The position numbers were made by a program, and so were the translations under genes. Shown piece by piece: positions 8,716 through 29,381 of a stretch of DNA of 41,936 nt (within the stretch, counting starts at the first letter, position 1; each line of letters opens with the position of its first letter). The stretch covers positions 1 to 41,936 of the IMG/VR virus record IMGVR_UViG_3300032235_000914, one strand, 5' to 3'. The notes under the pieces were generated by a model. That model did not search any database. It was not told the origin of the DNA and saw only the letters and a program-made list of their open reading frames with translations. Origin of the DNA: a virus.

Positions 8716-8716
8716 A

Positions 8717-9241: not shown

Positions 9242-9251
9242 ATTATACCTT

Positions 9252-9803: not shown

Positions 9804-9805
9804 AA

Positions 9806-10363: not shown

Positions 10364-10372
10364 ATAGTGTAC

Positions 10373-11986: not shown

Positions 11987-12019
11987 ATATAAATTATTCT
12001 CTCTCAGATCAATAATTTT

Positions 12020-12991
12020 TCACTTTATTTCAGACATCCAGTGTGTAATCATTTCATCTAACATTGTTTCAAAAGTATATTTTGGTTTCCAACCTAGTTC
12101 GCTGCGTATAGGTGCGCTATCCCCTTTAAGGAACTTTAATTCTTCAGGTCGTAAAAATTTTTGATTTTGAACTACATAATTTTCGTAATTCATATCTAAA
12201 CTTTCAAACACATATTTACAAAGTTCTCGAACCGTATGACTTTCGCCTGTGGCCACTACCCAATCTCTAGGTGTATCACTGTTAATGATTAAATGCATGG
12301 CTCGGACATAATCGTAACTGTGTCCCCAATCTCGACTACTGTCTAAATTTCCAAGTTCTAATTTATCTGTTAGCCCTCGTTTAATTTCCACTGCTGTTTT
12401 AACAACCTTGTTAGTTACAAAGTTAGTGCCTCGACGCGGGCTTTCGTGATTAAACAAAATACCATTGCAGGCATGTAGCTTATAGGCATCTCGATAATGG
12501 CGAGTTAAATTATACCCCATAACTTTACTGCACCCATATGGGCTAACTGGAACCATTGGAGTAGTTAATCGTTGTACTCCATCAGAATCTATACTGTTTC
12601 CAAACATTTCACTGGAACTAGCTTGATAAAATTTGGCCTCAGGCACAAACTGCCTGTATGCTTCAAGCATATTAAGAACACCCAAGCTGTTTGTTTTAAT
12701 AGTAAATGCAGGCATATCGAAACTAATACGCACATGACTCATTGCACCTAGATTATAAATCTCGTCAGGTTTAACTTGATTTACTACATTGGCAATGCTC
12801 ATTTCATCTGTTAAATCTCCATAGATTCGTGTAATCTTATCATTAATGTGTTCTAGTCTAGAGCTTTGACCTTCAGGCACACTATGGCGTCGAACGATGC
12901 CATATACATCATAGTTTAAACTTAGTAGGTATTCTGACAGATAACTGCCGTCTTGTCCATTAATACCTGTAATCAATGCTTTCTTTTTCAT
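12020..12991 (-). CDS. gmd: GDP-mannose 4,6-dehydratase
   Basis: Converts GDP-mannose to GDP-4-keto-6-deoxymannose using bound NADP. This extended short-chain dehydratase has ITGINGQDGSYLSEYL (residues 7-22, nucleotide binding), the RR pair R34/R35, SSSEMFG (E128), catalytic YGCSK (Y152, K156) and the FNHESPRRG block typical of Gmd. Its 323 aa are slightly below the bacterial norm (~340-370). The ATG lies one base after the aminotransferase stop (TAA-C-ATG). The keto sugar is the substrate for the PLP aminotransferase encoded just upstream. Confidence 0.95.
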   Translation of the reverse strand: MKKKALITGINGQDGSYLSEYLLSLNYDVYGIVRRHSVPEGQSSRLEHINDKITRIYGDLTDEMSIANVVNQVKPDEIYNLGAMSHVRISFDMPAFTIKTNSLGVLNMLEAYRQFVPEAKFYQASSSEMFGNSIDSDGVQRLTTPMVPVSPYGCSKVMGYNLTRHYRDAYKLHACNGILFNHESPRRGTNFVTNKVVKTAVEIKRGLTDKLELGNLDSSRDWGHSYDYVRAMHLIINSDTPRDWVVATGESHTVRELCKYVFESLDMNYENYVVQNQKFLRPEELKFLKGDSAPIRSELGWKPKYTFETMLDEMITHWMSEIK

Positions 12992-12992
12992 G

Positions 12993-13709
12993 TTATTTTT
13001 TCCATAATTTCTTCTGACTCAGGTCTGCATAGTTTTCCCAACTGCCGCAGTCAGGGTTGTCATCAGGCACTTGATCCATTAAGATAATTCCGCGGGCAGC
13101 ATCTTCGGGAGTCATGTACATATGCCATCCACAAATATCACCATCGTCATTCCATTGACTTACTTCTAAATCTCTGCCATCATATCTTGCTTTACACAAC
13201 CAATCGTATGCTTGTTTGTCATCAGTTAAAATCATCCCACCCCGACCGATAGGAATGCGTTTTTTAATTTGAAAACTACAAACATGTAACCCGCCCTGGT
13301 ACATCCCACGACGCCATCTTGTAGCTGCATCCCAAATGTTGTAAGGTTTTAATTGATACATGCCCGACCATTCTTCATGTCTGAAAATAGGCACTGCCCC
13401 TGCATGAACAATGTTCATTGGTATACTCTGATACGTATGTTTAGGAATTTCTATATGCCCTTGTGCCTGCGAGTATTTTAAACTTAGAAAAACACCGTTT
13501 GTGCAACAGTCCACTGCCACAGCATAGGTTGACCCTGCAAACTTAGCTACTTTTTGTTCAAAAAGTTCTACTACGTCTCTTGGATCATTCCACGGGTATC
13601 CTAATTCTTTTAGTTGTGCTAACTCTGGACGTTGAAAATGAGGGGGCAATTTGCCCGATGGCCAACTGTTAAATTTTGTATTCATTTTGTAGTCTGAATT
13701 TGTATCCAT
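12993..13709 (-). CDS. DegT/DnrJ/EryC1-type sugar aminotransferase, short form
   Basis: PLP-dependent sugar aminotransferase, probably acting on the 4-keto group made by Gmd (perosamine-synthase type). The PLP lysine is K150 in SFQIKKRIPIGRGG (family pattern SFxxxK...GxGG), and the ring-binding Asp is D127 in IWDAATRW. At 238 aa it lacks the ~120-150-residue C-terminal domain of usual members, yet all core PLP motifs are intact and no frameshift is visible. ATG 13685 (MNTKFNSWPSGKLP) is an equally good start; neither has a ribosome site. It overlaps the formyltransferase 3' end. A reduced but active or a non-aminating PLP enzyme are alternatives. Confidence 0.8.
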   Translation of the reverse strand: MDTNSDYKMNTKFNSWPSGKLPPHFQRPELAQLKELGYPWNDPRDVVELFEQKVAKFAGSTYAVAVDCCTNGVFLSLKYSQAQGHIEIPKHTYQSIPMNIVHAGAVPIFRHEEWSGMYQLKPYNIWDAATRWRRGMYQGGLHVCSFQIKKRIPIGRGGMILTDDKQAYDWLCKARYDGRDLEVSQWNDDGDICGWHMYMTPEDAARGIILMDQVPDDNPDCGSWENYADLSQKKLWKK

Positions 13710-14367
13710 GTAATTCTAAATATGGAGTAAACTTCCCTATAGAAGTGGCTCTAATTATTCTATCTAGTTCAGTCTTATCAACTGTCATGTCAATTTTTTG
13801 TAAATTGTTAATGGCCGCAATTTTTTTTGCTTTTCCTTGCCACTTATATGTATTAGTTTGAATAGCAGTTTGAAGATAAGTTTTATCCTCTACTATTTTA
13901 TCAAATACATTAAGAAACAATCTGTATAGCATGTCTTTGCTACGGTCAGATAAAATTTCTATGTTATCTTCGGAATCTATAGGAAACTCTAAAACATCAA
14001 TAATTGCACCATTATCGATTAGTTCGTTTATAATATGTGCAGTAACACCAAACATGCTGTCATTATTATATAATGCCCAAGATGCTGCCCCACTACCTGG
14101 ATATTTAGGACTGCCAGGATGAAAATTAATAGCTGCAATTTTGGCTTTGTCTAAAATTTGCTTTGTAAGAATATGATACGATCGAAAACAAACGATGTAA
14201 TCTCCTTCCCACTCTAAGATTTTCTGTGGCAAAGGCTCATTTCTATTAGCTGAATAAACTATCTCAATGTGATCCGCATAGTCTAACAAATATTCAGCAA
14301 CTTGTAAACTTCGCTCACAGTTTTGACCTCCAAAATAAAGTACTCGTCCTAACGGTTTATTAATCAT
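13669..14367 (-). CDS. Formyltransferase-family enzyme, probable sugar N-formyltransferase
   Basis: Transfers a formyl group from N10-formyl-THF. The catalytic triad of this fold is visible: N81 and H83 in AINFHPGSPKYPGSG, and D118 in ELIDNGAIID. PKYPG corresponds to the LPxYRG loop of Met-tRNA formyltransferase. At 232 aa it is shorter than Fmt (~310 aa) and lacks the tRNA-binding C-terminal domain, which favours a sugar N-formyltransferase (WbkC, VioF or GDP-perosamine formyltransferase type). The C-terminal DRIIRATSIGKFTPYLELHG segment is often seen in this group. It is encoded directly before the aminotransferase and gmd. Confidence 0.83.
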   Translation of the reverse strand: MINKPLGRVLYFGGQNCERSLQVAEYLLDYADHIEIVYSANRNEPLPQKILEWEGDYIVCFRSYHILTKQILDKAKIAAINFHPGSPKYPGSGAASWALYNNDSMFGVTAHIINELIDNGAIIDVLEFPIDSEDNIEILSDRSKDMLYRLFLNVFDKIVEDKTYLQTAIQTNTYKWQGKAKKIAAINNLQKIDMTVDKTELDRIIRATSIGKFTPYLELHGYKFRLQNEYKI

Positions 14368-14388
14368 TTTAATTTTGGTCCTACCACT

Positions 14389-14799
14389 TTAGATAAACAC
14401 CTTGTCATCTTTTTGACCAGTGTACGGGCCAGTTTTATATTCGTATACTACAGTATCATCTTCTAGTATAGTATAAGTATGACCTCCCTCGAACGTCATG
14501 CTACAATCTCCGGTGCGTATAATTTGTTTTTCCAATAATGTACCATCAATGTCATAAAAACTGACTTCAACACTGCCTTTGATCACTACCCATGACTCCT
14601 GCGCGATTATCTGTTGAACTGGAGTTTTCTTCCAAATGTGCTGATGTGGTTTAAAAGTTTTACCCTTGTCCATACGTAAAGTGGCCAACTGCAAAAACTG
14701 ATGTTCTTCGGCTACTTCATTGCGAGCTGTAATATCATTGAGCCGATATACTGTGTGAAGATGTTTTGTGGAATTTAATTTGCTGTAAATTTTATACAT
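14389..14799 (-). CDS. Cupin protein, WbuC/FdtA-like
   Basis: Single cupin domain, 136 aa from the ATG at 14799. PHQH (H52, H54), E68 and H107 (GGHTYT) can serve as metal ligands. WVVIKGSVEVSFYDIDG and GDCSMTFEGG are the two cupin motifs. The pattern resembles WbuC-type cupins of O-antigen loci or sugar ketoisomerase/epimerase cupins; the reaction cannot be fixed from sequence. The upstream in-frame TTG at 14841 was rejected because ATG 14799 overlaps the GT4 stop by 8 nt, a normal coupled arrangement. It lies between the GT4 transferase and the formyltransferase. Confidence 0.75.
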   Translation of the reverse strand: MYKIYSKLNSTKHLHTVYRLNDITARNEVAEEHQFLQLATLRMDKGKTFKPHQHIWKKTPVQQIIAQESWVVIKGSVEVSFYDIDGTLLEKQIIRTGDCSMTFEGGHTYTILEDDTVVYEYKTGPYTGQKDDKVFI

Positions 14800-15874
14800 G
14801 ATAGAAGTTGTCAATTTTAATTTTATTAAGCCATTCGTCAAATTTGTCGTGAACTACTTGATCACTGAAATTTTGCATAGCCCAATTTCTACAATTTTGT
14901 GGATCTAGATCATGTATTTTTTCAGCTGCTCGTACAAACGATCCAAAATCTTTGCAACGAAACCCAGTTACTCCGTGTACTACACTGTCCACATAGCCGC
15001 CCCAATCAGTGGCCAATACTGGAGTCCCGCACATCTGTGCTTCGGCAGCAATATTGCCGAATGGTTCAATATAGTGCGTGGGACACATTAAACACTGAGC
15101 ACCGCCTATTAATTTACTGCGCTGTTCAGGGTTTACATACCCAACTAGCTCAACGTGCTTGGGTATAGTCCTATAACCCAGGTGCTGCAAATCCGACGCA
15201 GGACCAGCAATATAAAGTTTCTTGCCCAGTCTTTCTGTTACCTGAACACAAAGATCAATACCTTTATCGTAATTTACTCGGCCTAAATAAACGAAATAAT
15301 CTTCTTTATCTGCTTTAAATTCAAATTCGCTGGGAGTAAATGCGTTGGGAATTACTGCATCGTACCAACTGGGTTTTAACAACATCCGATGCAGACCATA
15401 ATAATAGTGCATTTGACTATAACTAACAAATGCCCTATATTGAGTATATACTGTTTCAGGCGGATACCCTATACTGGGCTCTAATAATTTTAAATCGTTG
15501 TGTGCATCCATTACGGGCTTATTGGCTAATCCGTAAAATGCCAGTAACATATCCCCAGGTTTTTTACGACGCTTCACTGCGTCAATGGCTCTTTGATTAT
15601 AAATATTTTCTAAATCTTTTCGATGCGGAAATAGATTGCCATCATTGGGCGGTGCAAACTCATCGTTGGTCACACAGACTTCGTGATCACAATCAACTTC
15701 GGCTGATTCATGGCCATAATGGATCAGATTCCAGCCTCGTTTTTTCATATTTTCAATAAACTTTAATGCTGCAACATTAAATGGATCCATCCTGTAACGT
15801 GTATGCGTAATAGCACTAGGATTAGATAGAATATGTAGTGTGGGGAAGTCTGAACTTTTAGTTGAAGTATTCAT
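14792..15874 (-). CDS. GT4-family glycosyltransferase
   Basis: Retaining GT-B glycosyltransferase, 360 aa. The C-terminal Rossmann domain holds YFVYLGRVNYDKGIDL (~193-208) and the E-x7-E nucleotide-sugar motif in EPFGNIAAEAQMCGTPVLA (~268-286), followed by GGYVDSVVHGVTGF. The N-terminal acceptor domain is diverged (residues 1-180). No membrane segment is seen, so it should be soluble or peripheral. First gene of the downstream enzyme unit, with a perfect late-promoter box 21 nt before its ATG. The donor could be the GDP-sugar made by the next genes. Confidence 0.9.
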   Translation of the reverse strand: MNTSTKSSDFPTLHILSNPSAITHTRYRMDPFNVAALKFIENMKKRGWNLIHYGHESAEVDCDHEVCVTNDEFAPPNDGNLFPHRKDLENIYNQRAIDAVKRRKKPGDMLLAFYGLANKPVMDAHNDLKLLEPSIGYPPETVYTQYRAFVSYSQMHYYYGLHRMLLKPSWYDAVIPNAFTPSEFEFKADKEDYFVYLGRVNYDKGIDLCVQVTERLGKKLYIAGPASDLQHLGYRTIPKHVELVGYVNPEQRSKLIGGAQCLMCPTHYIEPFGNIAAEAQMCGTPVLATDWGGYVDSVVHGVTGFRCKDFGSFVRAAEKIHDLDPQNCRNWAMQNFSDQVVHDKFDEWLNKIKIDNFYHV

Positions 15875-15886
15875 AGGCCATTGTAT

Positions 15887-15913
15887 TATACACGATATTT
15901 ATAGGTGTGTATA
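15887..15913. repeat. Inverted repeat bracketing the late promoter
   Basis: TATACAC (15887-15893) and GTGTATA (15907-15913) are exact inverted 7-mers with a 13-nt interval that contains the whole TATAAATA box. Possible regulator site, or a chance AT-rich palindrome. Confidence 0.35.
15896..15903 (-). promoter_or_regulatory. Candidate late promoter, perfect TATAAATA, for the GT4-gmd-oxygenase unit
   Basis: Exact TATAAATA on the minus strand, ending 21 nt before the GT4 ATG, in the only sizeable gap (15875-15933) inside this enzyme block. It is the best late-box match in the window and suggests the eleven downstream genes are expressed late, with virion proteins. Confidence 0.65.
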
Positions 15914-15933
15914 CTGTTAAATCAAATTTATTT

Positions 15934-16686
15934 TTATAAAATTGTTCTATACTTAACCGGCTGTATTTTAACTTTACCAAAAAAATGATTTGAATGTATG
16001 TAAAGTATGTTTAATATTCTTTCAGCTAAGAATGCCAAAAGTCTTTTTTCTTCTAAACTTCTAATAGAATGTATATTGTCTTGTATATATGGTAGGGTAT
16101 ATTTTGTACCTTCGTACAATTCAAAAATTATGTCAAACAACACCGAACAAACAGAATCAAAAATTTTTCTTTGTGCAAAAAACATGTTGCATGGAGATAT
16201 AAATTTAAACTGATTCAAAGACTGTATCATTTCTGGCGTAATTGATATTTTTTTTATTCTTGCCGCTTCCATCAAAATTTTTATACCTAATTCGCCGTGA
16301 TGTCTTGCAAATTGTTGCCATATACTTTCATCGACCGGGATAAATTCAGACACAAACAGAGTATTTGTATCCAATGGAAAAAAATTATTTAATTCTTCTT
16401 CATTGTAAAATCTTCTATATTGATTTGTGCCCACAAATTCGTCATCTGTATTTTTCCATACCCAATATAATCCAGTCAAATCGCCCAGCAAATAATTCAA
16501 ATGCGAAATGTTTTCTTGTGTATCGTCCAGAATATAATTTAAATCTAAACATTTTTTGCGAGTGGCTTCATTTAAAAAATGAGATCCTCCCATGATAGTT
16601 TTTTGATTATACTGTGTATGTAAGGGTTTTCTTCCGTGAAAAGAATTACAGTATAGTGTTAGTCCAAAAGGTTGATGCTGTTCCAT
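15934..16686 (-). CDS. DUF4422 glycosyltransferase-like protein
   Basis: The signature of DUF4422 (PF14393) is clear: LNYILDDTQENISHLN, then LTGLYWVWKN, then FVGTNQYRRFY at ~60-95, and SPCNMFFAQRKIFD with EKRLLAFLAERILN toward the end. The family occurs in capsule and O-antigen loci and is thought to be a sugar transferase. The ATG at 16686 has GGGA 7 nt upstream and is preferred over an in-frame TTG at 16698. It overlaps the preceding gene by 28 bp. Last gene of the upstream enzyme unit. Confidence 0.83.
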   Translation of the reverse strand: MEQHQPFGLTLYCNSFHGRKPLHTQYNQKTIMGGSHFLNEATRKKCLDLNYILDDTQENISHLNYLLGDLTGLYWVWKNTDDEFVGTNQYRRFYNEEELNNFFPLDTNTLFVSEFIPVDESIWQQFARHHGELGIKILMEAARIKKISITPEMIQSLNQFKFISPCNMFFAQRKIFDSVCSVLFDIIFELYEGTKYTLPYIQDNIHSIRSLEEKRLLAFLAERILNILYIHSNHFFGKVKIQPVKYRTIL

Positions 16687-17483
16687 ATCGATTCCCAATT
16701 AATATGTGGATCTTTTTCTAAGTCTGATTGTAAATGCAGTGCAAGAGAGTTAATCGGTATTAATCCAAGAACACCTCTTTTGGTTAACATATAATTCAAC
16801 GAAACGTTTTCTAATTTATGGGCGTCTTTTTTATCTATTAGCTCGAAAAAATAATTATATAAATCCCAGTGCTGACTGAACTGCTGATGTGATGTGAGAA
16901 AAGAACAACTCATATCGTAGTATTGTATCCAATAACCGTGTTTACCTACTATAACAGTTCTAGGAGTTTCTCTGTTTCTGTATTGAGTTAACCATGAGTT
17001 GGGATCGTTGTAAGGACTTATTATTGTGTGAGTTGTTGTCTCATTATATATTTGATAAAATACATCTATTACATCCGAAATTGCTGTTTGAGTAAACAAA
17101 TAATCATCTTGTATTTGATATACCAAATCTTTACCGTTCCGTTGAAGCCAATGATAACAGTGTTCTATACTTTTTCGAATGCCGGTTTCGCTGGTTAATT
17201 CGAGTATTTCAATTTGAATTTTATCCGACGAAAATTTTTCACCGCATTGGTTAATAAATTCTTTTAATTCTACACTGGAGTGATCATCGATTATAACAAT
17301 ATTATGTGATGCATTATGATTTTGCTCGGAGCAATATCGAACAGATTCTAAAAAAGATTTAATACATTTTTTGGAAATCAATGTTCTATCATCACTTGCA
17401 TATCTTTTTTGACTTTGATATGATTTCACGTCGCAAGTTTGTAAAGCGTAGTGTATTTGAATTTGATTTATTGCGGTCTGCAT
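16659..17483 (-). CDS. GT2-like glycosyltransferase
   Basis: 274 aa. Residues ~60-70 hold NIVIIDDHSS, the first strand and Asp pair of GT-A enzymes, and YQIQDDYLFTQ (~122-132) is the DxD-like metal/donor motif. HGYWIQYYDMSCSFLTSHQQF may form the acceptor site. The C-terminal half is diverged from classical GT2 enzymes. It overlaps the FkbM gene by 16 bp and the DUF4422 gene by 28 bp, so the three are probably translated together. Donor and acceptor are unknown. Confidence 0.72.
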   Translation of the reverse strand: MQTAINQIQIHYALQTCDVKSYQSQKRYASDDRTLISKKCIKSFLESVRYCSEQNHNASHNIVIIDDHSSVELKEFINQCGEKFSSDKIQIEILELTSETGIRKSIEHCYHWLQRNGKDLVYQIQDDYLFTQTAISDVIDVFYQIYNETTTHTIISPYNDPNSWLTQYRNRETPRTVIVGKHGYWIQYYDMSCSFLTSHQQFSQHWDLYNYFFELIDKKDAHKLENVSLNYMLTKRGVLGLIPINSLALHLQSDLEKDPHINWESIWNSINLLD

Positions 17484-18205
17484 AATAAATTATTTCCAAT
17501 GGTTTCATACCCATAATCGAATTGATCTAAAAAATTTTTAATGTCTTCAATAATAGACTTTCTATTGTCAGAATGTTCAATGAATACTACTGGAAAATGT
17601 TTCTTTATTGTTTTAGTGGCACCTATTAGTACATCTAAGTCCATGCCTTCGACATCAATTTTAAGTAAGTGTATTTTTGGTATGTTGTGATATTCTACAA
17701 ACCAATCCAATGTATTGATCTGAACAACAATCTTATTGTGCGTAGTCTGTGAAATAACATTCTCAACTAAACTGAATGTTCCATAATCATTTTTCTCAAA
17801 ATAATTTGGTTCTTCAAATTCTATCTTAGTATTTTCCTTACCTAGACCTATATTGTATGTGTATACATTATAGAGATTATTGATGGCTGCATTGCCAGAT
17901 AACATTTGGAACACTTGTCGTTGAGGTTCAAAGGAATATACCTTTCCTTTTGGAAATGCTTTCGCCATCCACGTTGTAAATGTTCCTATGTTTGCACCAA
18001 TGTCAAATATCACTGGTTCTGAAAATTCTTTAATTGATTGATAACAGTTGTATGCTTCTACCGTTGAAGTATTTCCATGATCTAATAGCCATTGACCGTG
18101 ACCGACCTGTTCATGGTTGCAGTCAAATCTGTTAACAATCATTAACCCGTGATCGCAACTCAGTAAAACATTTCGGTGAACTTTGTCACCTATATTAAAG
18201 ACCAT
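17468..18205 (-). CDS. FkbM-family methyltransferase
   Basis: SAM-dependent O-methyltransferase. The SAM-binding motif I is VIFDIGANIGTFTTW (~65-79), followed by KVYSFEPQRQVFQML with the acidic ribose-binding Glu. LLKIDVEGMDLDVLIGA (~173-189) is the diagnostic FkbM segment. 245 aa. The ATG follows the upstream stop after one base (TAA-A-ATG). FkbM enzymes in phage and surface-sugar loci often methylate glycans, so sugar O-methylation is the likely role (inference). Confidence 0.9.
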   Translation of the reverse strand: MVFNIGDKVHRNVLLSCDHGLMIVNRFDCNHEQVGHGQWLLDHGNTSTVEAYNCYQSIKEFSEPVIFDIGANIGTFTTWMAKAFPKGKVYSFEPQRQVFQMLSGNAAINNLYNVYTYNIGLGKENTKIEFEEPNYFEKNDYGTFSLVENVISQTTHNKIVVQINTLDWFVEYHNIPKIHLLKIDVEGMDLDVLIGATKTIKKHFPVVFIEHSDNRKSIIEDIKNFLDQFDYGYETIGNNLLCRPQ

Positions 18206-18206
18206 T

Positions 18207-18809
18207 TTATTCTTTCAATTTTACAAATGCAGTTTGAAAAGAATCCGGTAAATGTATTAGTTCTATCTGATGCCAGTGTGACTGTATAAACATTTCAATG
18301 CCCATTCTAGGTGAAAGTTGTACTGGAGCACTGCCGTGTTCATCAACTAGTTTCCAACCTATAGAATCATCGCAGAGCATGACTCCGCCAACAGGCAATA
18401 ATCTCCATGATAACACCATGTCTTCTAATACTGCTGCTGAAGAGTGATCACCGTCAACAAAAATAAACTCAACTTTTTCTTTTTGATGAATTAATTCAAC
18501 AAGGGCTTCATAGCTATATTTGTTAATGTAGGTTACATTGCCCACACATTTACTTAAATTATATTCAAAAGTTCGTTTGATAGTTGCAAAATCAAAAGCA
18601 TGATTATCGTTTAAAGTTGTATGTGGGTCTATAGCATATATTTTAAACTTATCATTATGAATTTTACCAAACTCCGATACCCAAAACGTAGTTATTCCTT
18701 CGAAACAACCAATTTCTATCATTGTGTTCGGGACACCATATTTTTCAAATAAAAATTTGATATTGGTCTGTGTTCTTTCTCTGCCCATATCAACAGTTGA
18801 AATATACAT
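18207..18809 (-). CDS. Class I SAM methyltransferase (Methyltransf_24-like)
   Basis: About 200 aa from ATG 18809. Motif I is MIEIGCFEGITTFW (~30-43), IYAIDPH follows as motif II, and VEFIFVDGDHSSAAVLEDMV (~113-132) is characteristic of the Methyltransf_24/cephalosporin-hydroxylase-like group, then GGVMLCDD. I prefer 18809 to the longer ATG at 18890 because it lies one base after the upstream stop (TAA-T-ATG); the longer form would overlap the previous gene by 80 bp. Target unknown; probably a sugar. Confidence 0.82.
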   Translation of the reverse strand: MYISTVDMGRERTQTNIKFLFEKYGVPNTMIEIGCFEGITTFWVSEFGKIHNDKFKIYAIDPHTTLNDNHAFDFATIKRTFEYNLSKCVGNVTYINKYSYEALVELIHQKEKVEFIFVDGDHSSAAVLEDMVLSWRLLPVGGVMLCDDSIGWKLVDEHGSAPVQLSPRMGIEMFIQSHWHQIELIHLPDSFQTAFVKLKE

Positions 18810-18810
18810 A

Positions 18811-19419
18811 TTAGCTATTCCGTTTAGCCCAATCCTCAAACCTGCCGGGTTTGTGTACTCGAATAAAGATATTAATACTCTCTGCAACATTAGCCATGGT
18901 ATTTAAATTAATGTCGAGCTGTTTCGGTGCTAACATACCATCTTGTTGTTGCTGTAACCAATAACCAACCATATTGTAAGTTGTGTCATATACTTCAAGA
19001 TCAACGCCGTGATATAATCCATACGTACTATCACTTAATTTTTTTGCAATAGATTCAAAATTTACTTTTTGATCAAACATTTTAAATGTTTTAGCTGATA
19101 GTGGGCGAACATGTGTATAGTCATCCCAATATAAATCGCAGCGATGATGTGGTACGTTAATAAACCATTCGGCACCATCTTTACTGACTCTATACATTTC
19201 TTTGATGATATTAGTAAAAACTTTTGGATTTTGTCCAAGGTGCTCTAATATATTATCAGCATTAATTTTGTCAAAGAAATTATCTTCGTAGGGCCAAGGA
19301 GTAACTTCAAAGTCTAAAACTTCATCTGGATTACATTTTGATTCTATGTCTACATTCCAATGATCGTAGAGTTTTTTAAAGCCGCAGCCCATGTTTAGTT
19401 TTGTATGCTCAGGTATCAT
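18811..19419 (-). CDS. Class I SAM methyltransferase
   Basis: 202 aa. KLNMGCGFKKLYDHWNVDI (~7-25) is the SAM-binding motif, DNILEHLG (~55-62) the motif-III-like post segment, and EMYRVSKDGAEWFINVPHH follows as in Methyltransf_11-type enzymes. There is a good AAGGAAAT ribosome site 6 nt before the ATG. It stands between the sulfotransferase (9 nt gap) and the second methyltransferase. The pattern is common in surface-glycan loci; substrate unknown. Confidence 0.82.
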   Translation of the reverse strand: MIPEHTKLNMGCGFKKLYDHWNVDIESKCNPDEVLDFEVTPWPYEDNFFDKINADNILEHLGQNPKVFTNIIKEMYRVSKDGAEWFINVPHHRCDLYWDDYTHVRPLSAKTFKMFDQKVNFESIAKKLSDSTYGLYHGVDLEVYDTTYNMVGYWLQQQQDGMLAPKQLDINLNTMANVAESINIFIRVHKPGRFEDWAKRNS

Positions 19420-19428
19420 AATATTTCC

Positions 19429-20229
19429 TTAAATCCAGGCATCCCAAAAAATTTCGCGATTATATTGTTCATATAAATCCAAACCAAGATATTCTACGCA
19501 ATTGACCGTTGTTTTTTCAAGAGAAGGTTTAACTTTGTGTAGGTCTGGTAATCCTACTGCAAGGTCATTGTAATTTTCAGTTTGTTCAATTTTTTGATAA
19601 TCGTGTTTAAAATCTGGTAATTCAAAGAAGTCATAGATTCTTTTCGTCTGACTCTTCGGACTGCTACAAAAACGATTATAATCAATAAATAAAAATCTAT
19701 CAAGGTAACCCATAGTAATCGCATCTTTTAAATTTCTATGGCTTAATCCCATTGCACCATCCGGCCCAGCATAGTAATATGCTCTTGAAGCAATACTCGA
19801 TCCTTCTCTGAGATGTGCATCGACATTTGTAAAAAATAAGGGATTCTCTTTACGCATTCTTTCAAATGAAGTTAGAATCTCCGCTGGATTTCTGACACAT
19901 ATAATCATCTTGACTTGTTTCTGCAAGACTGCTTCAAGTTGTCCAATTAGTGGAACCCATCCTCTGTCTTTGTCAAAAACTATGGGTCTATCTATGTGCG
20001 AATAATATCCATCGAGCACACTGTTCAAAACACCAGCTTTTGCCTGATCATTTCGATATTCTTTATTTGATTCAATACTACTCCAACTAGCATTGATAGA
20101 TCCAAAAATAGATGCCAATGAACTTACTGATTCACCGTGAATTTCTGGATTTTGTTTAAGTAAGTTTGTTATAAGGGTTGATCCGGACCTGGGTAGGCCA
20201 GAAATAAAATACAAATGTTCTTTTTTCAT
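19429..20229 (-). CDS. PAPS-dependent sulfotransferase
   Basis: Transfers sulfate from PAPS. The 5'-phosphosulfate loop is ISGLPRSGSTLITNLL (residues 9-24) and the 3'-phosphate site is ICVRNPAEILTSFERM, with R113 and S121 in the expected spacing. 266 aa, with no signal peptide or membrane segment, so it should act in the cytoplasm. GGAG lies 6 nt before the start. Together with neighbouring transferases and methyltransferases it suggests a sulfated glycan or sulfated tyrosine/sugar on protein; the substrate is open. Confidence 0.85.
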   Translation of the reverse strand: MKKEHLYFISGLPRSGSTLITNLLKQNPEIHGESVSSLASIFGSINASWSSIESNKEYRNDQAKAGVLNSVLDGYYSHIDRPIVFDKDRGWVPLIGQLEAVLQKQVKMIICVRNPAEILTSFERMRKENPLFFTNVDAHLREGSSIASRAYYYAGPDGAMGLSHRNLKDAITMGYLDRFLFIDYNRFCSSPKSQTKRIYDFFELPDFKHDYQKIEQTENYNDLAVGLPDLHKVKPSLEKTTVNCVEYLGLDLYEQYNREIFWDAWI

Positions 20230-20297
20230 TTAGACTCCAACTAATTTAATGTATATCAATATAAATATATATCTTATTTGTTGAAGCTTTCTTTTTT

Positions 20298-21329
20298 TTA
20301 TTTCGGAAAAAGTTTTGTTAATTCTTGCGAGACTTCTTCAAATGTTTCTTTCCATTTACCAAATTTTTTCTGTCTAAAAACTCTTGTTGAGTCTTGATAC
20401 CATGGACTATGTTTATCGCCACATGCCCAAACATGATAAGGTAAAAGTGGAACAATTACCCAAGTTGGTTTACCCATGGCTGATGCTATATGAGCAATAC
20501 TAGTACAAGATGTTATTACTAAATCTAAGTTTTGTATACATGCAACAGTATCTTCCCAAGATATAATTAAGTGTTGTAGATCAGAGATTTCATCGGGCAA
20601 TTCTCTCAAATCTGTATCTCTTTGCAAACTATAGAACTGTATGTGTTCATTGTCTTTATAGAGATTTGTCAACTTTTCTGCTGGAAATATTCTGAATTGT
20701 TGATGTTCAAACAATGGACTTCCGCTCCAGCGAATACCCACTTTAATTTTTTTCTCCGTATTCAACATTGTTTTCCAAATATCAACACTCTCATTTTTTG
20801 CAAAAATATATGGTTCATTGGGCAGAGTCTCAAATGTATGCCCAAATAACCAACTACAACTAAAACCAGGAATCCAATAATCGTGAAAAGTTGAACTTAC
20901 TTCATCCAACGTTATACATTTGTGAGTTCCTGGAATTCTAAGAAAAACTGGATGTAAGGATTTGTCACAACAAAGAATTGCGATCCCGCCTCTTTTCCAA
21001 ACTTCTGTTGCAAATCTTGCGTATATGATTTGATCGCCGAAACCACATTCCATGTTAAGTATAACAGTTTTTCCTGTTAAATCGTCTTGCCCATTCCATA
21101 TAGGTTTGGTGGTGTTTATTTTTCCGGATCCATATACTTTAAGACTTCTGCCATATTCAAGACATTGAAAACCCTCTTGTAATTTACCTTGATTAATTAA
21201 GAACCAACCACGATTAAATTTTGCCCTTGGATCAGTAGGATCATTAGCTTCCATTTGTTCTGCAAGTTTCCATCCTTCTGCAAAACGGCCGCGGATCATT
21301 AGATTTAACTGTTGATCTATTAGATGCAT
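20298..21329 (-). CDS. TPR protein with GT9/heptosyltransferase-like domain
   Basis: 343 aa. Residues 1-65 form about one and a half TPR-like helix pairs (AEGWKLAEQMEANDPTDPRAK, FNRGWFLINQGKLQEGF). From ~88 a GT-B-like domain follows: ECGFGDQIIYARFATEVWKRGG (~94-115), VGIRWSGSP, FYSLQRD and LVITSCTSIAHIASAMGKP (~268-287). The last is the typical GT9/GT41 donor-site block. Such TPR-GT proteins are linked to protein or surface O-glycosylation. First gene of the upstream enzyme unit, 24 nt downstream of a late-promoter box. Confidence 0.8.
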   Translation of the reverse strand: MHLIDQQLNLMIRGRFAEGWKLAEQMEANDPTDPRAKFNRGWFLINQGKLQEGFQCLEYGRSLKVYGSGKINTTKPIWNGQDDLTGKTVILNMECGFGDQIIYARFATEVWKRGGIAILCCDKSLHPVFLRIPGTHKCITLDEVSSTFHDYWIPGFSCSWLFGHTFETLPNEPYIFAKNESVDIWKTMLNTEKKIKVGIRWSGSPLFEHQQFRIFPAEKLTNLYKDNEHIQFYSLQRDTDLRELPDEISDLQHLIISWEDTVACIQNLDLVITSCTSIAHIASAMGKPTWVIVPLLPYHVWACGDKHSPWYQDSTRVFRQKKFGKWKETFEEVSQELTKLFPK

Positions 21330-21353: not shown

Positions 21354-21361
21354 TATTTATG
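21354..21361 (-). promoter_or_regulatory. Candidate late promoter for the TPR-GT/sulfotransferase unit
   Basis: CATAAATA on the minus strand overlaps the stop codon of the RCC1 gene and ends 24 nt before the TPR-GT ATG. 7 of 8 matches to the late box, with the same spacing as the other candidates. Confidence 0.5.
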
Positions 21362-24300
21362 TAAGATTTCTCAGAGCTAAAGTAAAATTTTGGCCTGCAC
21401 TAACCGCAATCCACGAACTAGAACCTATTTGAACTGGTGATGATTTACCGAGTGTGACCGTGGTGTTGTCGCCCAGTTGTCCATATTGGTTTCTTCCCCA
21501 GGTGAACAATTGTTTATCTGATCTTATGGCTGCGGTGTGTCCATCGCCAGCACTCACCGCCGTCCATGAACTGCTTCCAATTTGCACTGGTGATGATTTA
21601 TTGACTGTGGTATTATCACCTAATCGACCATAAGTATTTTGACCCCAAGTAAACAATAATCTATCACTTCTAATAGCCGCTGTGAAAGCGCCGTTGCCCG
21701 CAGCGGCGCTCACAGCCGTCCATGAACTGCTTCCAATTTGCACTGGTGATGATTTATTGACTGTGGTATTATCACCTAATCGACCATTAGAACCTTGACC
21801 CCAAGCAAATAATAATCGATCTGATCTAAGTGCTAGAATGTGATTACCCCCAGCACTCACCGCCGTCCATGAACTGCTTCCAATTTGCACTGGTGATGAT
21901 TTATTGACTGTGGTGTTATCACCTAATCGGCCGTAACTACCCAAACCCCAAGTAAATAGTGTACCACCAGATCTAATGGCTGCTGCGAAATAACTACCAA
22001 CACTAACTGCTGTCCACGAACTTGATCCTATTTGGACTGGTGATGATTTACTGATAGTGGTACCATCACCTAGATTGCCCTGGCCACCAAAACCCCATGT
22101 AAACAATAATCCATCACTTCTAATAGCTGCTGTCTGAATACCGCCAGCACTTACGGCAGTCCAACTACTGGATCCAATTTGCACTGGTGATGATTTACTG
22201 ACTATAGTGCCGTCGCCCAGCTGGCCTTGACTACCACCGCCCCAGGTAAACAATAAGTTGTCAGATCTGATTGCTGCTGTATGGGATCTGCCGACCGACA
22301 CTGCTGTCCACGAACTTGATCCAACTTGAACTGGTGATGAAAAATTAGAAGCATTATTACCTATTAGCACTGGTGATGATTTACCGGTTGCGGTGCCGTC
22401 ACCTAAGCTTCCAAAAGAGTTGAATCCCCAAGCGTACAATAATCCATTAGATATAATAGCATCAACCCAGCCGTTACCAACACCTATTGCGGTCCAACTA
22501 CTGGATCCAATTTGTACTGGTGATGATTTGTTAACTGTGGTACCATCACCCAATCGGCCGTAACTACCCAAACCCCAAGTAAATAGTGTACCATCAGATC
22601 TGATAGCCACGGTGAATGCTACACTAGCACTTACTGCCGTCCATGAACTAGAACCTATTTGAACTGGTGAATTAGTATTTAAAAGAGTATTACCCAAAAG
22701 AACTGGTGATGATTTGCTGACAGTGGTGGCATCACCAATGGCACCTTGAGTATTGAACCCCCAAGCGTACAGTAATCCATCGGATCTGATGGCCTCCGTA
22801 AAATTACTAAAAGAACCCACTGCCGTCCACGAACTGCTTCCAATTTGCACTGGTGATGATTTACCGGTTATAGTGCCGTCACCTAATTGTCCATCAATGT
22901 TAGTACCCCAGGTAAATAGTGTACCGCCAGATCTAATTGCAGCCGTGTTAGAAGTACCTGCAGACACTGCCGTCCATGAACTGCTTCCAATTTGAACAGG
23001 TGATGATTTATTGACCGTGGTACCATCACCTAATCGACCAACTGTCGCTAGGCCCCAGGTAAACAGTGTACCACCAGATCTGATAGCTGCTGTGTGGGCA
23101 TAGCCAGCACTTACTGCGGTCCATGAACTGTTTCCAATTTGCACTGGTGATGATTTATTGACCGTAGTGCCGTCACCTAATCGGCCAGTAACACCAGAAC
23201 CCCAAGTAAACAGTGTACCACCAGATCTAATAGCTGCTGTGTGCGTATAACCAGCACTTACTGCTGTCCATGAACTAGAACCAATTTGAAATGGTTGTGA
23301 TGTGTTGGCAACAGAACCATCACCCAATTGACCTTGAGTGTTGAATCCCCAAGTAAATAGTGTACCACCAGATCTGATAGCCACACCGTGGCCTAGGCCA
23401 GCACTTATTGCTGTCCACGAACTTGATCCTATTTGAACCGGTGATGATTTGTTGACAGTGGTACCATCACCTAATCGGCCATTACCACCAGCGCCCCATG
23501 CAAATAATAATTGATCTGATCTAAGTGCTAGAGTATGAACACTACCAGCACTTACTGCCGTCCATGAACTGCTTCCAATTTGAACAGGTGATGATTTGTC
23601 AATTTGGGATCCATCACCCAATTGTCCAAAATTGTTTCGACCCCAGGTAAACAATAATCCATCTGATCTTATGGCCACTGAGTGAGCACCATGTGTGCTA
23701 GTGCTTATTACAGTCCAACTAAAGACTTGAGTGCTGGGTGTTCCAAGTTGTCCAAAAGTATTTTGTCCCCAAGTAAATAATTTACCATCTGAGTCAATAG
23801 CTGCTGCGAAATAACTACCAGCACTTACTGCTGTCCAAGAACTGCTTCCTATTTGAACTGGTGACGATTTGCTGACAGTGGTACCATCACCTAATTGTCC
23901 AGAACTGTTAAGTCCCCAACCAAATAGTGTACCACCAGATCTAATAGCTGCTGTCTGAGCTCCGCCGGCACTTACTGCCGTCCATGAACTGCTTCCAATT
24001 TGAACCGGTGATGATGCGTTGGTTACAAGATTATTACCAAGTTGGCCATTGCCGTTGAAACCCCAAGTAAATAGTGTGCCGCCAGATCTGATAGCGGCTG
24101 AGAAGGCGCCATTGGCAGCAGCACTTACTGCTGTCCATGAACTGGATCCAACTTGAACTGGTGATGATCTGTTAATGGTATTTAGAACACCTAATTGGCC
24201 AGTATTGTTTCTGCCCCAAGTAAATAATAATCCATCACTTCTAATGGCGACTGTATGAGTTTGACCAGCACTTACTGCGGTCCAACTACTTGATCCAATT

Positions 24301-24731
24301 TGAATCGGTGATGATTTATTGACCGTGGTATTATCACCTAGTTGACCAACACTATTGAGACCCCAAGTAAACAACAAATTATCTGATCTTATAGCAGCGG
24401 TGTGACCTCCACTAGCACTTATTACAGTCCAACTAAAAACATCAGTTGCTTTGCCAAGTTGACCATACGTTCCCGCACCCCATGCATACAAAAATCCTGG
24501 AGAAACGGCTACACTTCCGGCCGCAGCAAACATGGTGCCAATGTCTACACCACCTGCCTGAAAATTAGTAGTTCCAAAAGCTGTGCCGCCATTACTCACA
24601 CTGTAGTAATAGTTAGAGATATCGGTGCCGGCCACTGTATAACTTACATCGGCTCTTTTTGAAGATGAGCCTATGGGTTCAAACAGTGTGTCTAGATCGG
24701 AGCCGTTAAATCTAAAACTTGTGGTTGGCAT
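21357..24731 (-). CDS. RCC1-repeat beta-propeller tail fibre/adhesin, 21 repeats
   Basis: 1124 aa. Residues 1-78 resemble other phage fibre N-termini (SFRFNGSDLDTLFEPIG). From ~79 the protein is built of RCC1 repeats of ~50 residues, with consensus SSPVQIGSSSWTAVSAG, then HTAAIRSGGTLFTWG, then GQLGDGTTVNK. I count 21 SW(T/I)(A/V) units. The chain opens with the second half of a repeat (LYAWGAGTYGQLG) and ends with the first half (SWIAVSAGQNFTLALR), as expected for ring closure. Twenty-one is three times the seven blades of a classical RCC1 propeller. Two repeats carry extra SSPVL insertions. A receptor-binding role is likely by context. Confidence 0.85.
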   Translation of the reverse strand: MPTTSFRFNGSDLDTLFEPIGSSSKRADVSYTVAGTDISNYYYSVSNGGTAFGTTNFQAGGVDIGTMFAAAGSVAVSPGFLYAWGAGTYGQLGKATDVFSWTVISASGGHTAAIRSDNLLFTWGLNSVGQLGDNTTVNKSSPIQIGSSSWTAVSAGQTHTVAIRSDGLLFTWGRNNTGQLGVLNTINRSSPVQVGSSSWTAVSAAANGAFSAAIRSGGTLFTWGFNGNGQLGNNLVTNASSPVQIGSSSWTAVSAGGAQTAAIRSGGTLFGWGLNSSGQLGDGTTVSKSSPVQIGSSSWTAVSAGSYFAAAIDSDGKLFTWGQNTFGQLGTPSTQVFSWTVISTSTHGAHSVAIRSDGLLFTWGRNNFGQLGDGSQIDKSSPVQIGSSSWTAVSAGSVHTLALRSDQLLFAWGAGGNGRLGDGTTVNKSSPVQIGSSSWTAISAGLGHGVAIRSGGTLFTWGFNTQGQLGDGSVANTSQPFQIGSSSWTAVSAGYTHTAAIRSGGTLFTWGSGVTGRLGDGTTVNKSSPVQIGNSSWTAVSAGYAHTAAIRSGGTLFTWGLATVGRLGDGTTVNKSSPVQIGSSSWTAVSAGTSNTAAIRSGGTLFTWGTNIDGQLGDGTITGKSSPVQIGSSSWTAVGSFSNFTEAIRSDGLLYAWGFNTQGAIGDATTVSKSSPVLLGNTLLNTNSPVQIGSSSWTAVSASVAFTVAIRSDGTLFTWGLGSYGRLGDGTTVNKSSPVQIGSSSWTAIGVGNGWVDAIISNGLLYAWGFNSFGSLGDGTATGKSSPVLIGNNASNFSSPVQVGSSSWTAVSVGRSHTAAIRSDNLLFTWGGGSQGQLGDGTIVSKSSPVQIGSSSWTAVSAGGIQTAAIRSDGLLFTWGFGGQGNLGDGTTISKSSPVQIGSSSWTAVSVGSYFAAAIRSGGTLFTWGLGSYGRLGDNTTVNKSSPVQIGSSSWTAVSAGGNHILALRSDRLLFAWGQGSNGRLGDNTTVNKSSPVQIGSSSWTAVSAAAGNGAFTAAIRSDRLLFTWGQNTYGRLGDNTTVNKSSPVQIGSSSWTAVSAGDGHTAAIRSDKQLFTWGRNQYGQLGDNTTVTLGKSSPVQIGSSSWIAVSAGQNFTLALRNLT

Positions 24732-24738
24732 TTATTTT

Positions 24739-25053
24739 TTATTGTCCAGGTTGTTCTTCTACCGTTGGTTCTGATGGAGCTGGTTCTGATGGAGCTGGCG
24801 GAATTTCTAATATGTCTCTATGCTCATATACTTCACCGTTTTCGATAGTATAGTTTAGATAATCAGACATTTTGTGTGTTGTGGGATCAAACGGTGTTGT
24901 GTCTCTGATAATTTTAACAAAACCATTTTCACGCATAAAGTTTTCATCAACTTTACATTTTAGATGAAAATTGTCATGCTCATTCCAATTTTGTGGCAAT
25001 AAGTCATAGACACCTTTAAGTTCACCGTCGACTAAATTTGCATATACTGTCAT
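24739..25053 (-). CDS. Small tail-fibre-associated protein
   Basis: 104 aa. [23 protein letters not shown] is a start often seen in small proteins beside marine phage fibre genes. The C-terminus is a Pro/Glu-rich tail with a repeated [11 protein letters not shown]. It overlaps the upstream collagen-like fibre by 4 bp (ATGA) and has a TAGGAG ribosome site. A fibre-assembly chaperone or minor fibre component is plausible, but no catalytic motif is visible. Confidence 0.65.
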
Positions 25054-28000
25054 TTGTTTTCTCCTATTTGATGATATTTTTCAAATAAAATATTTATTTT
25101 GGACTCTAATTCTTTTATTGATTTTTGCTGCTCTTTTATTGCTTCAATTAGTAGTCCAATAATACTGTCATATGACACAGATTTAGTTCCATTTTCATTG
25201 GTGTTGACAATTTCTGGTATAATAATTTCAACTTCCTGTGCAATTATACCCATTGCTTTATTCTTATTGTCTTTCCATCTGAATGTTACCCCTCTCATTT
25301 GCAACAATTTATTCAATGAATCTTCAATAGTTTCTATATTTTCTTTGATATTTTTATCAGACAATGTATTGAATATTGTTGCATTTAATGTGCCAGTTGA
25401 CGGATTAAAATATAGTTTTGTACTACTAGCTTCAGCGGTTTGATTTGATCCAATTGCTGGAACAAATACTGGATAATGATTGGCGTTCGTTGTGCTTTCT
25501 TCTGTTGCATTAATTGTTGTACTTGGACCAGCAGGTCCTTGCGGTCCTTGCGGTCCTGTATTACCTATGGGTCCGATTGGACCTTGTGGTCCTTGTGGCC
25601 CTGTATTACCGATTGGTCCGATTGGTCCGATTGGACCTTGCGGTCCTTGCGGTCCTGTATTACCTATGGGTCCGATTGGACCTTGTGGTCCTTGTGGCCC
25701 TGTATTACCGATTGGACCAATCGGTCCGATTGGACCCTGTGGACCCTGTGGCCCTTGTGGTCCTGTGTTACCTATAGGTCCGATTGGTCCGATTGGTCCT
25801 TGCGGTCCTTGCGGTCCTGTATTACCTATGGGCCCGATTGGACCTTGCGGTCCCTGTGGTCCTGTATTGCCAATCGGTCCTTGTGGTCCTTGTGGACCTG
25901 TATTACCGATTGGACCTTGCGGTCCCTGTGGTCCTGTATTGCCAATCGGTCCTTGTGGTCCTTGTGGACCTGTATTACCAATTGGACCTTGTGGTCCTTG
26001 CGGGCCTGTATTACCGATTGGCCCTTGTGGCCCTTGTGGGCCTGTATTACCGATTGGCCCGATAGGCCCGATAGGCCCTTGTGGCCCTTGTGGCCCTTGT
26101 GGCCCCGTATTACCTATAGGACCGATTGGGCCTTGTGGACCTTGTGGCCCAGTATTGCCAATTGGACCTTGTGGCCCTTGTGGCCCTTGTGGCCCTTGTG
26201 AGCCACCTGCTAATAAGTTAGTTCCTACTCCTGCTGCTGCGGCAGTGACATCCAAATAAGCACCACGATTAGTTCCGCCGGCTTCAAAGAATCTTAAAAA
26301 ATTTTGATGTACATCAATTGTAACACCGCGTACTATTGTTGTGTTAGTTGCTGAATTAGCCAGGAATATCTCCCCACCTTCGTTGCCACTTTGGTAGGTA
26401 GATTCAAGATTACCGTTAACTTTGATGCTTACACCATCATACTGTAATCCTGAACTTCCAGTAACAACGTTACTAGAATTTCTGTATATGATCTGATTAG
26501 CACTTCCTGCAACAGGTCCGGCTGGTCCTTGTGGTCCTTGTGGTCCTGTGTCACCGATAGGTCCTTGCGGTCCCTGCGGTCCTGTGTTACCGATAGGTCC
26601 TTGCGGTCCTTGCGGTCCTGTGTTACCGATAGGACCCTGCGGTCCTTGCGGTCCTGTGTTACCGATAGGTCCTTGCGGTCCTTGCGGTCCAATTTCACCC
26701 TGTGGTCCCTGTGGCCCTGTATTACCAATTGGACCCTGTGGTCCCTGTGGGCCGATTGGTCCCTGTGGCCCCTGTGGTCCTGTATTACCAATTGGTCCTT
26801 GTGGTCCTTGTGGTCCTACTGCTTGTTGTCCGTTAGCATAAAAATAATTACCAGCATATATATTTCCGGCAATGCCCGCGCCACCGGCAACTACTAATGC
26901 ACCTGAGCCAGTAGAAGTCGAAATAGTTGAATTAGCAAGGATTAATTCACCAGATTTAATCGTGCCGTATGTACCAGTGATAACGTTGGCATTAACATCT
27001 TCTGTGGCACCCGAACCTAACCACTCAAGATAACCAGTCTCATTTTGCCACCCTAAAAACGCATTACTATTTTCTGTTTTATAATAATGAAATCTAATAC
27101 CTATGTCTTTGCCATCATTGAATGTTAGATTGGCTAAGTTCGGTAAAGTATGCAATTCAATGATACTATCAGTGAAATATGTATTATTCGATCCAGATGC
27201 AATGACATTGCCGCTGACTACTAAGTTACCGGTAACAGTTAAGTTACCAGCCACTGTAGAATCTGTGTTTGCGTAAAAACTGTTTAACGTTGCCAGTCCA
27301 CTAGTACCAATAGTTGTAAATAGTCCAGTGCTTGGTGTCAAATTACCGATTGGTGTGTTTTGTAGCCCACCAAATGCTCTAGCTGATCCACCCGCATTTA
27401 AATTACCGCTTACGCCAGTCCCACCTAATACAACTAAAGCACCAGTGCTGGTACTAGTAGAAGCTGTGTCATTGTTAAAACCAGCAATTTTACTGCCAGC
27501 AACTGTAACAGATAATGTATTATTGCTATTTTCTGTGTAGAAACCGACCTGACTTGATTCTATGGCCAAAGGCGGATTAGTTACATCGTTTGTCTGTCCA
27601 TTGACTAGTATTTTCTGATTATCAATGCTGTGATATGATGTTCCTTGATCGGCAAAAACAATCATACTATAACTAGCATAGAACCCAGTGTCAGTTACTC
27701 CTTTTCTCCATACCAGTGATGGTGATACAGCGTTACCATCTGAAAGTATGACTTGGCCGTTTGATGTAACGTTGCCGCCTGTGATATTACCAGTGACGCT
27801 TACTGTAGTAAATTGACCAGTGCTTGGTGTTACGTTACCAATTGGTGTATTTTGTAGACCACCTGTTGCTGTTAACGCACCAGTACTGGCATTAAATGTA
27901 AATTTTGGCGTCGAAACGTTGGGAGTTTGATTTGATCCCGCAGCACCTACCATCACAGGATATAATATTGTTGTACTTGTATTATCTGTGGCATTAATTA

Positions 28001-29381
28001 TAGTTGATGGGCCAGTGGGCCCTTGTGGGCCAGTGTTACCAATGGGGCCTTGTGGGCCTTGTGGGCCTTGTGATCCTGCTCCACTTGGACCTTGTGGTCC
28101 TTGTGGTCCTTGTGATCCTGCTTCACCTTGCGGTCCTTGTGGTCCTTGTGGTCCTGCTCCACTTGGTCCTTGTGGTCCTTGTGGGCCAGTGTTACCAATG
28201 GGGCCTTGTGGGCCTGTTTCACCCTGTGGTCCTTGTGGGCCGGTATTACCAATTGGTCCTTGTGGTCCTTGTGGGCCAGTGTTACCAATGGGGCCTTGTG
28301 GGCCTGTTTCACCCTGTGGTCCTTGTGGGCCGGTATTACCAATTGGTCCCTGTGGTCCTTGTGGGCCGGTATTACCAATTGGTCCCTGTGGGCCTGTTTC
28401 ACCCTGTGGTCCTTGTGGGCCGGTATTACCAATTGGTCCCTGTGGGCCCTGTGGTCCTACTGCTTGTTGTCCGTTGGCATAAAAATAATTACCTGCATAG
28501 ATATTTCCAGCAATACCCGCGCCACCAGCAACTACTAACGCACCTGACCCAGTAGAAGTCGAAATAGTTAAATTAGCAAGAATTAATTCACCAGTTTTAA
28601 AAGTTCCGTATGTGCCTGTGATAACATTAGCATTAACATTTTCTGTAGCGTCTGCACCTAACCATTCCAGATAACCAGTTTCGTTTTGCCATCCTAGGAA
28701 TGCATTTTGATTATCTGTTTTATAATAATGGAACCTAATACCTATGTCTTTGCCATCATTGAATGTTAAGTTTGCCAAATTTGGCAGAGTGTGTAATTCG
28801 ATGATGCTATCAGTGAAGTATGTATTATTCGATCCAGATGCTATAACATTACCACTTACTATTAAATTACCATCAACTGTAAAATTACCAACGACAGTGG
28901 AATCTGTGTTGGCATAAAAACTATTCAAAGTTGCCAACCCGCTGGACTGAATTGTAGTAAATCGACCCGAACTAGGGGTGACGTTTCCTATAGCAGTGTT
29001 TTGAATACCAGCTTGGGCCTGTAACGTAGTGCCTACTGTAGCAGATCCATTAGCTGTTAATGCTGCGGCAGTAATATTGCCAGTGGCACTTACTGTGGTA
29101 AATTGACCACTACTTGCTGTTCCATTGCCAATAGGTGTATTTTGTATTCCACCCTTGGCCTGTAATGTAGTAGTGGCAACTACACTGGTATTAACTGTAA
29201 GACCGTTTACTCTGGTATTGCCCCCTGAAACTATGGTAGTATTGCTGAATATAGAATTAGCAATAAAAACGTCGGGATTGGTTAAAAGACGTGTCCAAGT
29301 ATTGTTGCTGCTGGTATACTCATAGGTAATACCGTTGACATTTGCACTTTGACCGTTGGTTGGATTACTAGGAAACGACAT
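25050..29381 (-). CDS. Collagen-like tail fibre with C-terminal S74 chaperone domain
   Basis: 1443 aa. Three Gly-X-Y tracts (about residues 308-458, 854-956 and 1059-1286), mostly GPQ, GPI and GNT triplets, are separated by beta-rich modules. Two of these are copies of a [18 protein letters not shown] module that also occurs in the 1605-aa fibre. Four copies of a TPIGN...FTT motif occur. The C-terminal 103 residues are an intramolecular chaperone/peptidase S74 domain: SDKNIKENI (S1341), [15 protein letters not shown] and [11 protein letters not shown], then a coiled coil. In this family the domain trimerises the fibre and can cut itself off before the Ser. Trimeric fibre is expected. Confidence 0.88.
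25525..26205 (-). repeat. Collagen-coding tract A
   Basis: Tandem 9-nt Gly-X-Y codons in higher-order 27-45-nt units ([15 protein letters not shown] type), about 227 residues. Near-identical units make it a likely slippage and recombination site. Confidence 0.85.
26514..26818 (-). repeat. Collagen-coding tract B
   Basis: Second Gly-X-Y tract of the same fibre, about 100 residues of [12 protein letters not shown] triplets. Confidence 0.8.
28008..28458 (-). repeat. Collagen-coding tract C
   Basis: Third Gly-X-Y tract, about 150 residues. It has several exact copies of a [18 protein letters not shown] unit and GPSGAG breaks. Confidence 0.82.

Follow-up and report, generated by a model that had tools for sequence, protein, structure and literature searches.

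Introduction

The nearest known cases to the protein described here are the single rings of RCC1 and UVR8, tandem RCC1 arrays of bacteria, and DDB1. RCC1 and UVR8 (PF00415; PDB 4dnw, 1a12) are single uninterrupted rings. T9SS surface proteins of Hymenobacter carry RCC1 arrays of 14 blades, with uniform linkers and apparently in tandem. The chain of DDB1 does not pass strictly ring after ring: its propeller BPC is completed by the N terminus. DDB1 also has 21 repeats in three propellers, BPA, BPB and BPC, which are WD40-like (PMC3938054). Among phages, RCC1 repeats occur in three PHROG families (4219, 7220 and 16766) and in many BFVD viral models. An initial annotation of the present locus regarded a phage fibre made almost entirely of such repeats as unusual; with matches in 26 of 50,697 phage records, RCC1 arrays are not very rare in phages. 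The gene reported here very probably encodes a phage surface protein with three seven-bladed RCC1 propellers nested as P1(P2(P3)), an architecture that recurs recursively across its relatives.

Gene and repeat array

The window (i.e., the whole stretch of DNA analysed, 41,936 nucleotides) is a 41.9-kb IMG/VR viral contig with T4-like tail genes. The open reading frame proposed by the initial annotation is real, and the encoded protein consists of a 76-residue N-terminal domain followed by RCC1 repeats up to the C terminus.

21357-24731, minus strand: RCC1 gene, ATG start, 1124 aa
24504..24731, minus strand: N-terminal domain, residues 1-76, with three motifs like F-x-V-x-G-x-D-[LI]

Pfam identifies RCC1 (PF00415) with an E value of 4.6e-203 in 20 stretches, at 658 bits against a curated cut-off of 21.7. 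The count of 21 repeats, originally made by eye, is borne out by 21 SWTAV anchors, at which the protein was split, and by 21 places found with RCC1 in a six-frame search. The F/Y-T/A-W-G motif has 20 strict matches and one deviating form, LFGWG. A regular repeat is 49 aa long and comprises strand B (SWTAVSAG), strand C (HTAAIRSDG), strand D (LLFTWG), a GQLGDG loop and strand A (SSPVQIG). The half-blades that had been noticed at both ends are present: the array starts with a D strand alone ('FLYAWGAGTYGQLG') and ends with A-B-C, giving 21 blades in total. The human RCC1 ring has the same permutation, starting with D and ending with A-B-C. The repeats had also been called nearly identical at the DNA level, which is overstated. 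Thirteen repeats of 147 nt average 71% identity (60-84%), and the longest identical in-register run among them is 42 nt.

Residues 1-76 are 53-86% identical in relatives with arrays of 7 to 63 blades, and a Pfam search with them was without match. They are a probable attachment module. In many nested RCC1 proteins (L046, L056, L117, L067, L013, L039) a short stretch resembling MLLIEQLLAK takes the place of the 76-residue domain at the N terminus; some of these proteins adjoin a longer version of the 104-aa protein described below.

Linker classes and proposed ring assignment

The linkers from strand D to the next strand B, measured core to core, are nearly all 16 aa long. Two short linkers (S, 6-7 aa), after blades 0 and 5, are without the SPVQIG strand (A); two long linkers (L, 29 aa), after blades 12 and 14, contain it twice. 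The order of these markers, S0, S5, L12, L14 and the end at 21, reads as balanced brackets and yields 7, 7 and 7 blades: blades 6-12 are P3, blades 1-5 and 13-14 are P2, and the N-terminal D strand with blades 15-21 is P1. With the markers placed at random, such a parse has p = 0.0018 for this protein alone. The elements are as follows, in the order of the chain.

24453..24494, minus strand: first element of P1, a lone D strand, residues 80-93; completes the split blade with the C-terminal A-B-C
24435..24452, minus strand: short linker S0, residues 94-99, ATDVF region; opening bracket from P1 to P2, 6 aa against 16
23742..24434, minus strand: left part of P2, blades 1-5, residues 100-330, from the repeat parse
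23721..23741, minus strand: short linker S5, residues 331-337, PSTQVF region; opening bracket from P2 to P3
22692..23720, minus strand: innermost guest P3, blades 6-12 and closing strand SSPVLLG, residues 338-680, assigned with AF2 and the UVR8 match
22674..22691, minus strand: L12 connector between two A strands, residues 681-686; closing bracket within a 29-aa linker with two SP strands
22359..22673, minus strand: right part of P2, i.e., the host A strand, blades 13-14 and closing strand SSPVLIG, residues 687-791; 5 + 2 = 7
22341..22358, minus strand: L14 connector, residues 792-797, NNASNF; closing bracket, P2 done and P1 resumed
21360..22340, minus strand: main part of P1, blades 15-20 and the terminal A-B-C (blade 21), residues 798-1124; 6 + 1 split blade = 7

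In the proposed mechanism the short linkers would open a guest propeller and the long, double-A linkers would close it. The chain would make strand D of P1 and exit by a short linker, bypassing strand A. It would then begin P2 at strand B, build five blades and exit again, after which all of P3 would be built and closed by its own strand A. The chain would resume at the missing strand A of P2 and finish that ring, and the C terminus would complete P1. Short linkers would lack strand A because the outer chain exits after D and the guest starts at B; long linkers would hold two A strands because the guest needs its own while the outer ring is still short of one.

The initial annotation had proposed three seven-bladed propellers and implied that they close one after another. 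The grouping into three sevens agrees with the bracket parse and with the multiples of seven in relatives, but the consecutive order does not, as the markers lie after blades 0, 5, 12 and 14 and not after 7 and 14. A tandem grouping with borders at blades 7 and 14 was accordingly rejected. The alternative that blades 1-7, 8-14 and 15-21 form three tandem propellers, with the short and long linkers mere loop variation, does fit the total of 21; RCC1 repeats could close into a ring wherever seven follow one another, and two Hymenobacter proteins resemble plain tandem arrays of 14 blades. It is nevertheless improbable: the S and L positions miss the tandem borders, the bracket rule holds in many relatives, with seven blades at each level, and loop variation gives no account of each S missing, and each L gaining, exactly one A strand.

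The bracket rule in relatives

Relatives were gathered from IMG/VR and phage records, a profile of the B-C-D core was built, and all open reading frames were parsed. The S and L thresholds were set after three proteins had been seen. Classing linkers by length alone fails at linker 13 of L016, in which the D-A loop is shortened and strand A is present; the presence of a P-x-x-[IVLM] strand was therefore added as a criterion. The formula C(6(k+1),k)/(k+1) supplied the null counts; for the window protein it agrees with the value obtained by exact counting.

Blade counts lie at multiples of seven in 25 of the 33 complete relatives with an N-terminal D strand. Most of the remaining eight are one blade off, consistent with blades missed by the HMM. 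Where an S is followed by an L with no marker between, the two are exactly 7 blades apart in 40 of 54 cases. Modules of the form S(a)S(7)L(b)L, in which a ranges between 2 and 5, have a + b = 7 in 15 of 16 nonredundant cases. The exceptional module and three similar 14-blade nodes divide 7 + 7, with an odd linker exactly 7 further, as read by eye; these nodes are in L056, L124, L167 and L035.

Automatic parsing gave seven blades per level in ten nonredundant complete proteins. Addition of new loci, of L081, and of three proteins completed by eye for a missed marker or blade brought the perfect parses to fifteen phage proteins, with 14 to 63 blades, 2-9 propellers and a depth of 2-6. The markers completed by eye are in L016, L166 and L175a, and the missed blade of the 63-blade protein was checked. 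When equal numbers of S and L are scattered at random, the parses have a log10 p of -12.2 in the three proteins from which the rule was formed and of -56.4 in the twelve others, three of them completed by eye; these values are indicative, as they treat the proteins as independent and cover parsing proteins only, and nested layers may be copied together, so that neither proteins nor layers are fully independent. There is no plausible way in which selection among about 30 candidates could remove this margin.

The window protein itself has the bracket structure in full (S without A, L with two, seven per level). ORF 1 of L175 resolves its 63 blades into nine sevens at a depth of six, i.e., nine rings in 3,197 aa. 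In L013 one host ring holds three guests, and L081 has six rings in a linear stack, most with four blades outward and three returning. Relatives without S and L linkers (L018 and two of S-SRM01) have 7 blades, and both linker types are also absent from two Hymenobacter proteins whose 14 blades lie in tandem.

Two nested RCC1 genes with different trees lie close together in L175 (63- and 21-blade open reading frames) and in L012 (28 and 20 blades). L015, L127 and L110 have RCC1 open reading frames of 4,000-4,800 aa, in which about 55-83 cores were detected and the markers are mixed; the first of these has glycine-rich inserts as well. A second linker style, with LGRxINRSSPVQIG and odd linkers of 17-18 residues at sevenfold spacing, was observed in L027, L048, L131, L037 and L086. 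It suggests guests placed between blades (A to B) and not inside a blade; this is a post hoc reading of the sequences and was left out of the bracket counts.

Exceptions and changes in blade number

The second open reading frame of L012 has a guest of six blades. Totals are unbalanced in L009 (34 blades) and L051 (46 blades). L009 is almost identical to L011 but lacks one whole repeat, at whose borders lie about 70 identical bases. L051 exceeds L081 by four blades and has one extra left unit that lacks a right partner. These two may be recombinants or assembly errors. Change of blade number by recombination of repeats, as initially suggested, may thus occur (L009/L011, L051/L081), but such changes break a bracket. 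In L081 and L051 the successive layers, with 4 blades on the left and 3 on the right, look like copies made outward; left and right halves would have to be gained jointly. Several divergent arrays have no HMM parse (L060, L130, L139, L176, L177).

The same two pairs are what could be said for the arrays being partly assembly artefacts whose exact numbers mean little. This is very improbable: artefacts would disrupt the sevens rather than give rise to them across many divergent proteins, which come from different samples.

Structure prediction

AF2 was run with a 30-row register-matched alignment on a piece made of a host blade, S, seven guest blades, L and a host blade, with window residues 298-744 as the first row. 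For this 9-blade piece, whose boundaries were cut according to the nesting hypothesis, pLDDT was 89.2 and pTM 0.76, and strands were predicted for all blades. Both A strands of L folded as strands. Confidence was lowest at the S connector (S5 had the lowest block pLDDT) and between the A strands of L. Each of the seven guest blades, i.e., those of the innermost ring only, had B, C, D and A. A Foldseek search with the model returned one complete seven-bladed UVR8 propeller at TM 0.85-0.89, normalised to the target, and because of this match the nine blades are read as containing one closed ring of seven blades, not of eight or nine. By extension, the interrupted host rings would also close as seven-bladed rings, with the outer A strand, some 365 residues on, pairing with the host strand D.

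Prediction in parts thus supported a seven-bladed guest, but the full protein (1124 aa, 7-row alignment) reached a pLDDT of 35 only, with no RCC1 match and no ring, and this model is unreliable. The missing ring in it would fit an uninterrupted superhelix, or one large ring with all 21 blades. Such a fold is hardly credible given the confident seven-bladed ring in the 9-blade piece (UVR8 TM 0.88) and the clustering of blade counts at multiples of seven.

Gene neighbourhood and function

The loci of relatives share a conserved cassette order: S74 fibre, 104-aa protein, RCC1 protein, 343-aa protein and sulfotransferase. In the window these neighbours are:

25050..29381, minus strand: collagen-like tail fibre with Peptidase_S74 chaperone (Pfam, PHROGs), upstream in the cassette
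24739..25053, minus strand: protein of 104 aa immediately before the RCC1 gene; its own gene overlaps the S74 fibre gene at the latter's end
20298..21329, minus strand: conserved downstream protein, 343 aa; its S-SRM01 relative is annotated as a TPR protein
19429..20229, minus strand: sulfotransferase (Pfam), a conserved downstream member of the cassette

In relatives, too, a conserved S74 fibre C terminus lies upstream of the RCC1 gene. The 104-aa protein is about 80% identical and in the same place in L009-L012 and L016, and is longer and more divergent elsewhere; it may be an adaptor or fibre chaperone. Positions 8131-21329 of the window, within the tail-gene region, hold a cluster of genes for 2OG-Fe(II) oxygenase, DUF6445, fucosyltransferase-like protein, GDP-mannose dehydratase, glycosyltransferase and sulfotransferase. 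This cluster may modify glycans of the host or of the virion.

Mass spectrometry of phage W70 virions detected RCC1 proteins (PMC11370258). Because the N-terminal domain carries 7 to 63 blades, an S74 fibre adjoins and W70 virions hold RCC1 proteins, the likeliest role is that of a modular adhesin whose length and branching vary. The assembly, stacked or branched, could form a fibre-like virion adhesin beside the S74 tail fibre that touches host surface glycans. A role in chromatin or Ran exchange is implausible; the name is inherited from the repeat. Nesting might be real and the role other than tail adhesion, e.g., a free or secreted decoy, or decoration of capsid or whiskers. Placement on the tail is predicted here from the gene neighbourhood, and many genes that modify sugars and sulfate stand among the neighbours. 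Such a role is nonetheless rather unlikely, since the position after the S74 tail fibre is conserved in the examined loci and in Synechococcus phage S-SRM01, and RCC1 proteins are present in the W70 virions.

The module would be recursive, with relatives of 1 to 9 propellers in linear stacks or branched trees; many of these relatives have the same conserved N-terminal domain. A broader reading, for which we see even chances, is a context-free architecture in which one repeat, two bracket linkers and a fixed seven allow arbitrary trees, and in which phages would vary the trees freely while the anchor stays constant, building adhesins that differ in length and branching as a modular means of altering reach or multivalency. 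If nesting is right, a sequence rule assigns near-identical blades to rings, which ordinary tools cannot do, and a domain can be inserted into its own copies repeatedly with folding retained. It would also explain how phages lengthen and branch a surface protein with all rings intact, and it raises the questions how left and right half-rings come to be gained jointly and whether folding runs from the innermost ring outward.

Comparison with known systems

A search of the open-access literature gave no description of recursive, nested or interrupted propellers. Text matches to 'RCC1' in PMC12906663 are names of algal strains and not the repeat protein.

The phage RCC1 proteins (PHROGs 4219, 7220 and 16766; S-SRM01, W70, BUCT-ZZ01) have the same repeat family as the window protein, and those of cyanophages share its fibre-gene neighbourhood. 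S-SRM01 has two members of 7 blades and BUCT-ZZ01 has 14 blades. Unlike the window protein, single-propeller phage members have no S or L linkers. Annotations of phage members give only 'regulator of chromosome condensation' or 'BNR repeat' and do not describe nesting. The Hymenobacter arrays likewise have no S or L linkers. DDB1 belongs to an unrelated blade family and has one fixed arrangement, without variable recursive nesting and without bracket-like linkers. With RCC1 and UVR8 the window protein shares blade sequence and fold (TM 0.85-0.89 to UVR8), but its rings would be inserted into one another between strands D and A. None of these nearest cases has the variable recursive self-insertion proposed for the window protein and its nested relatives.
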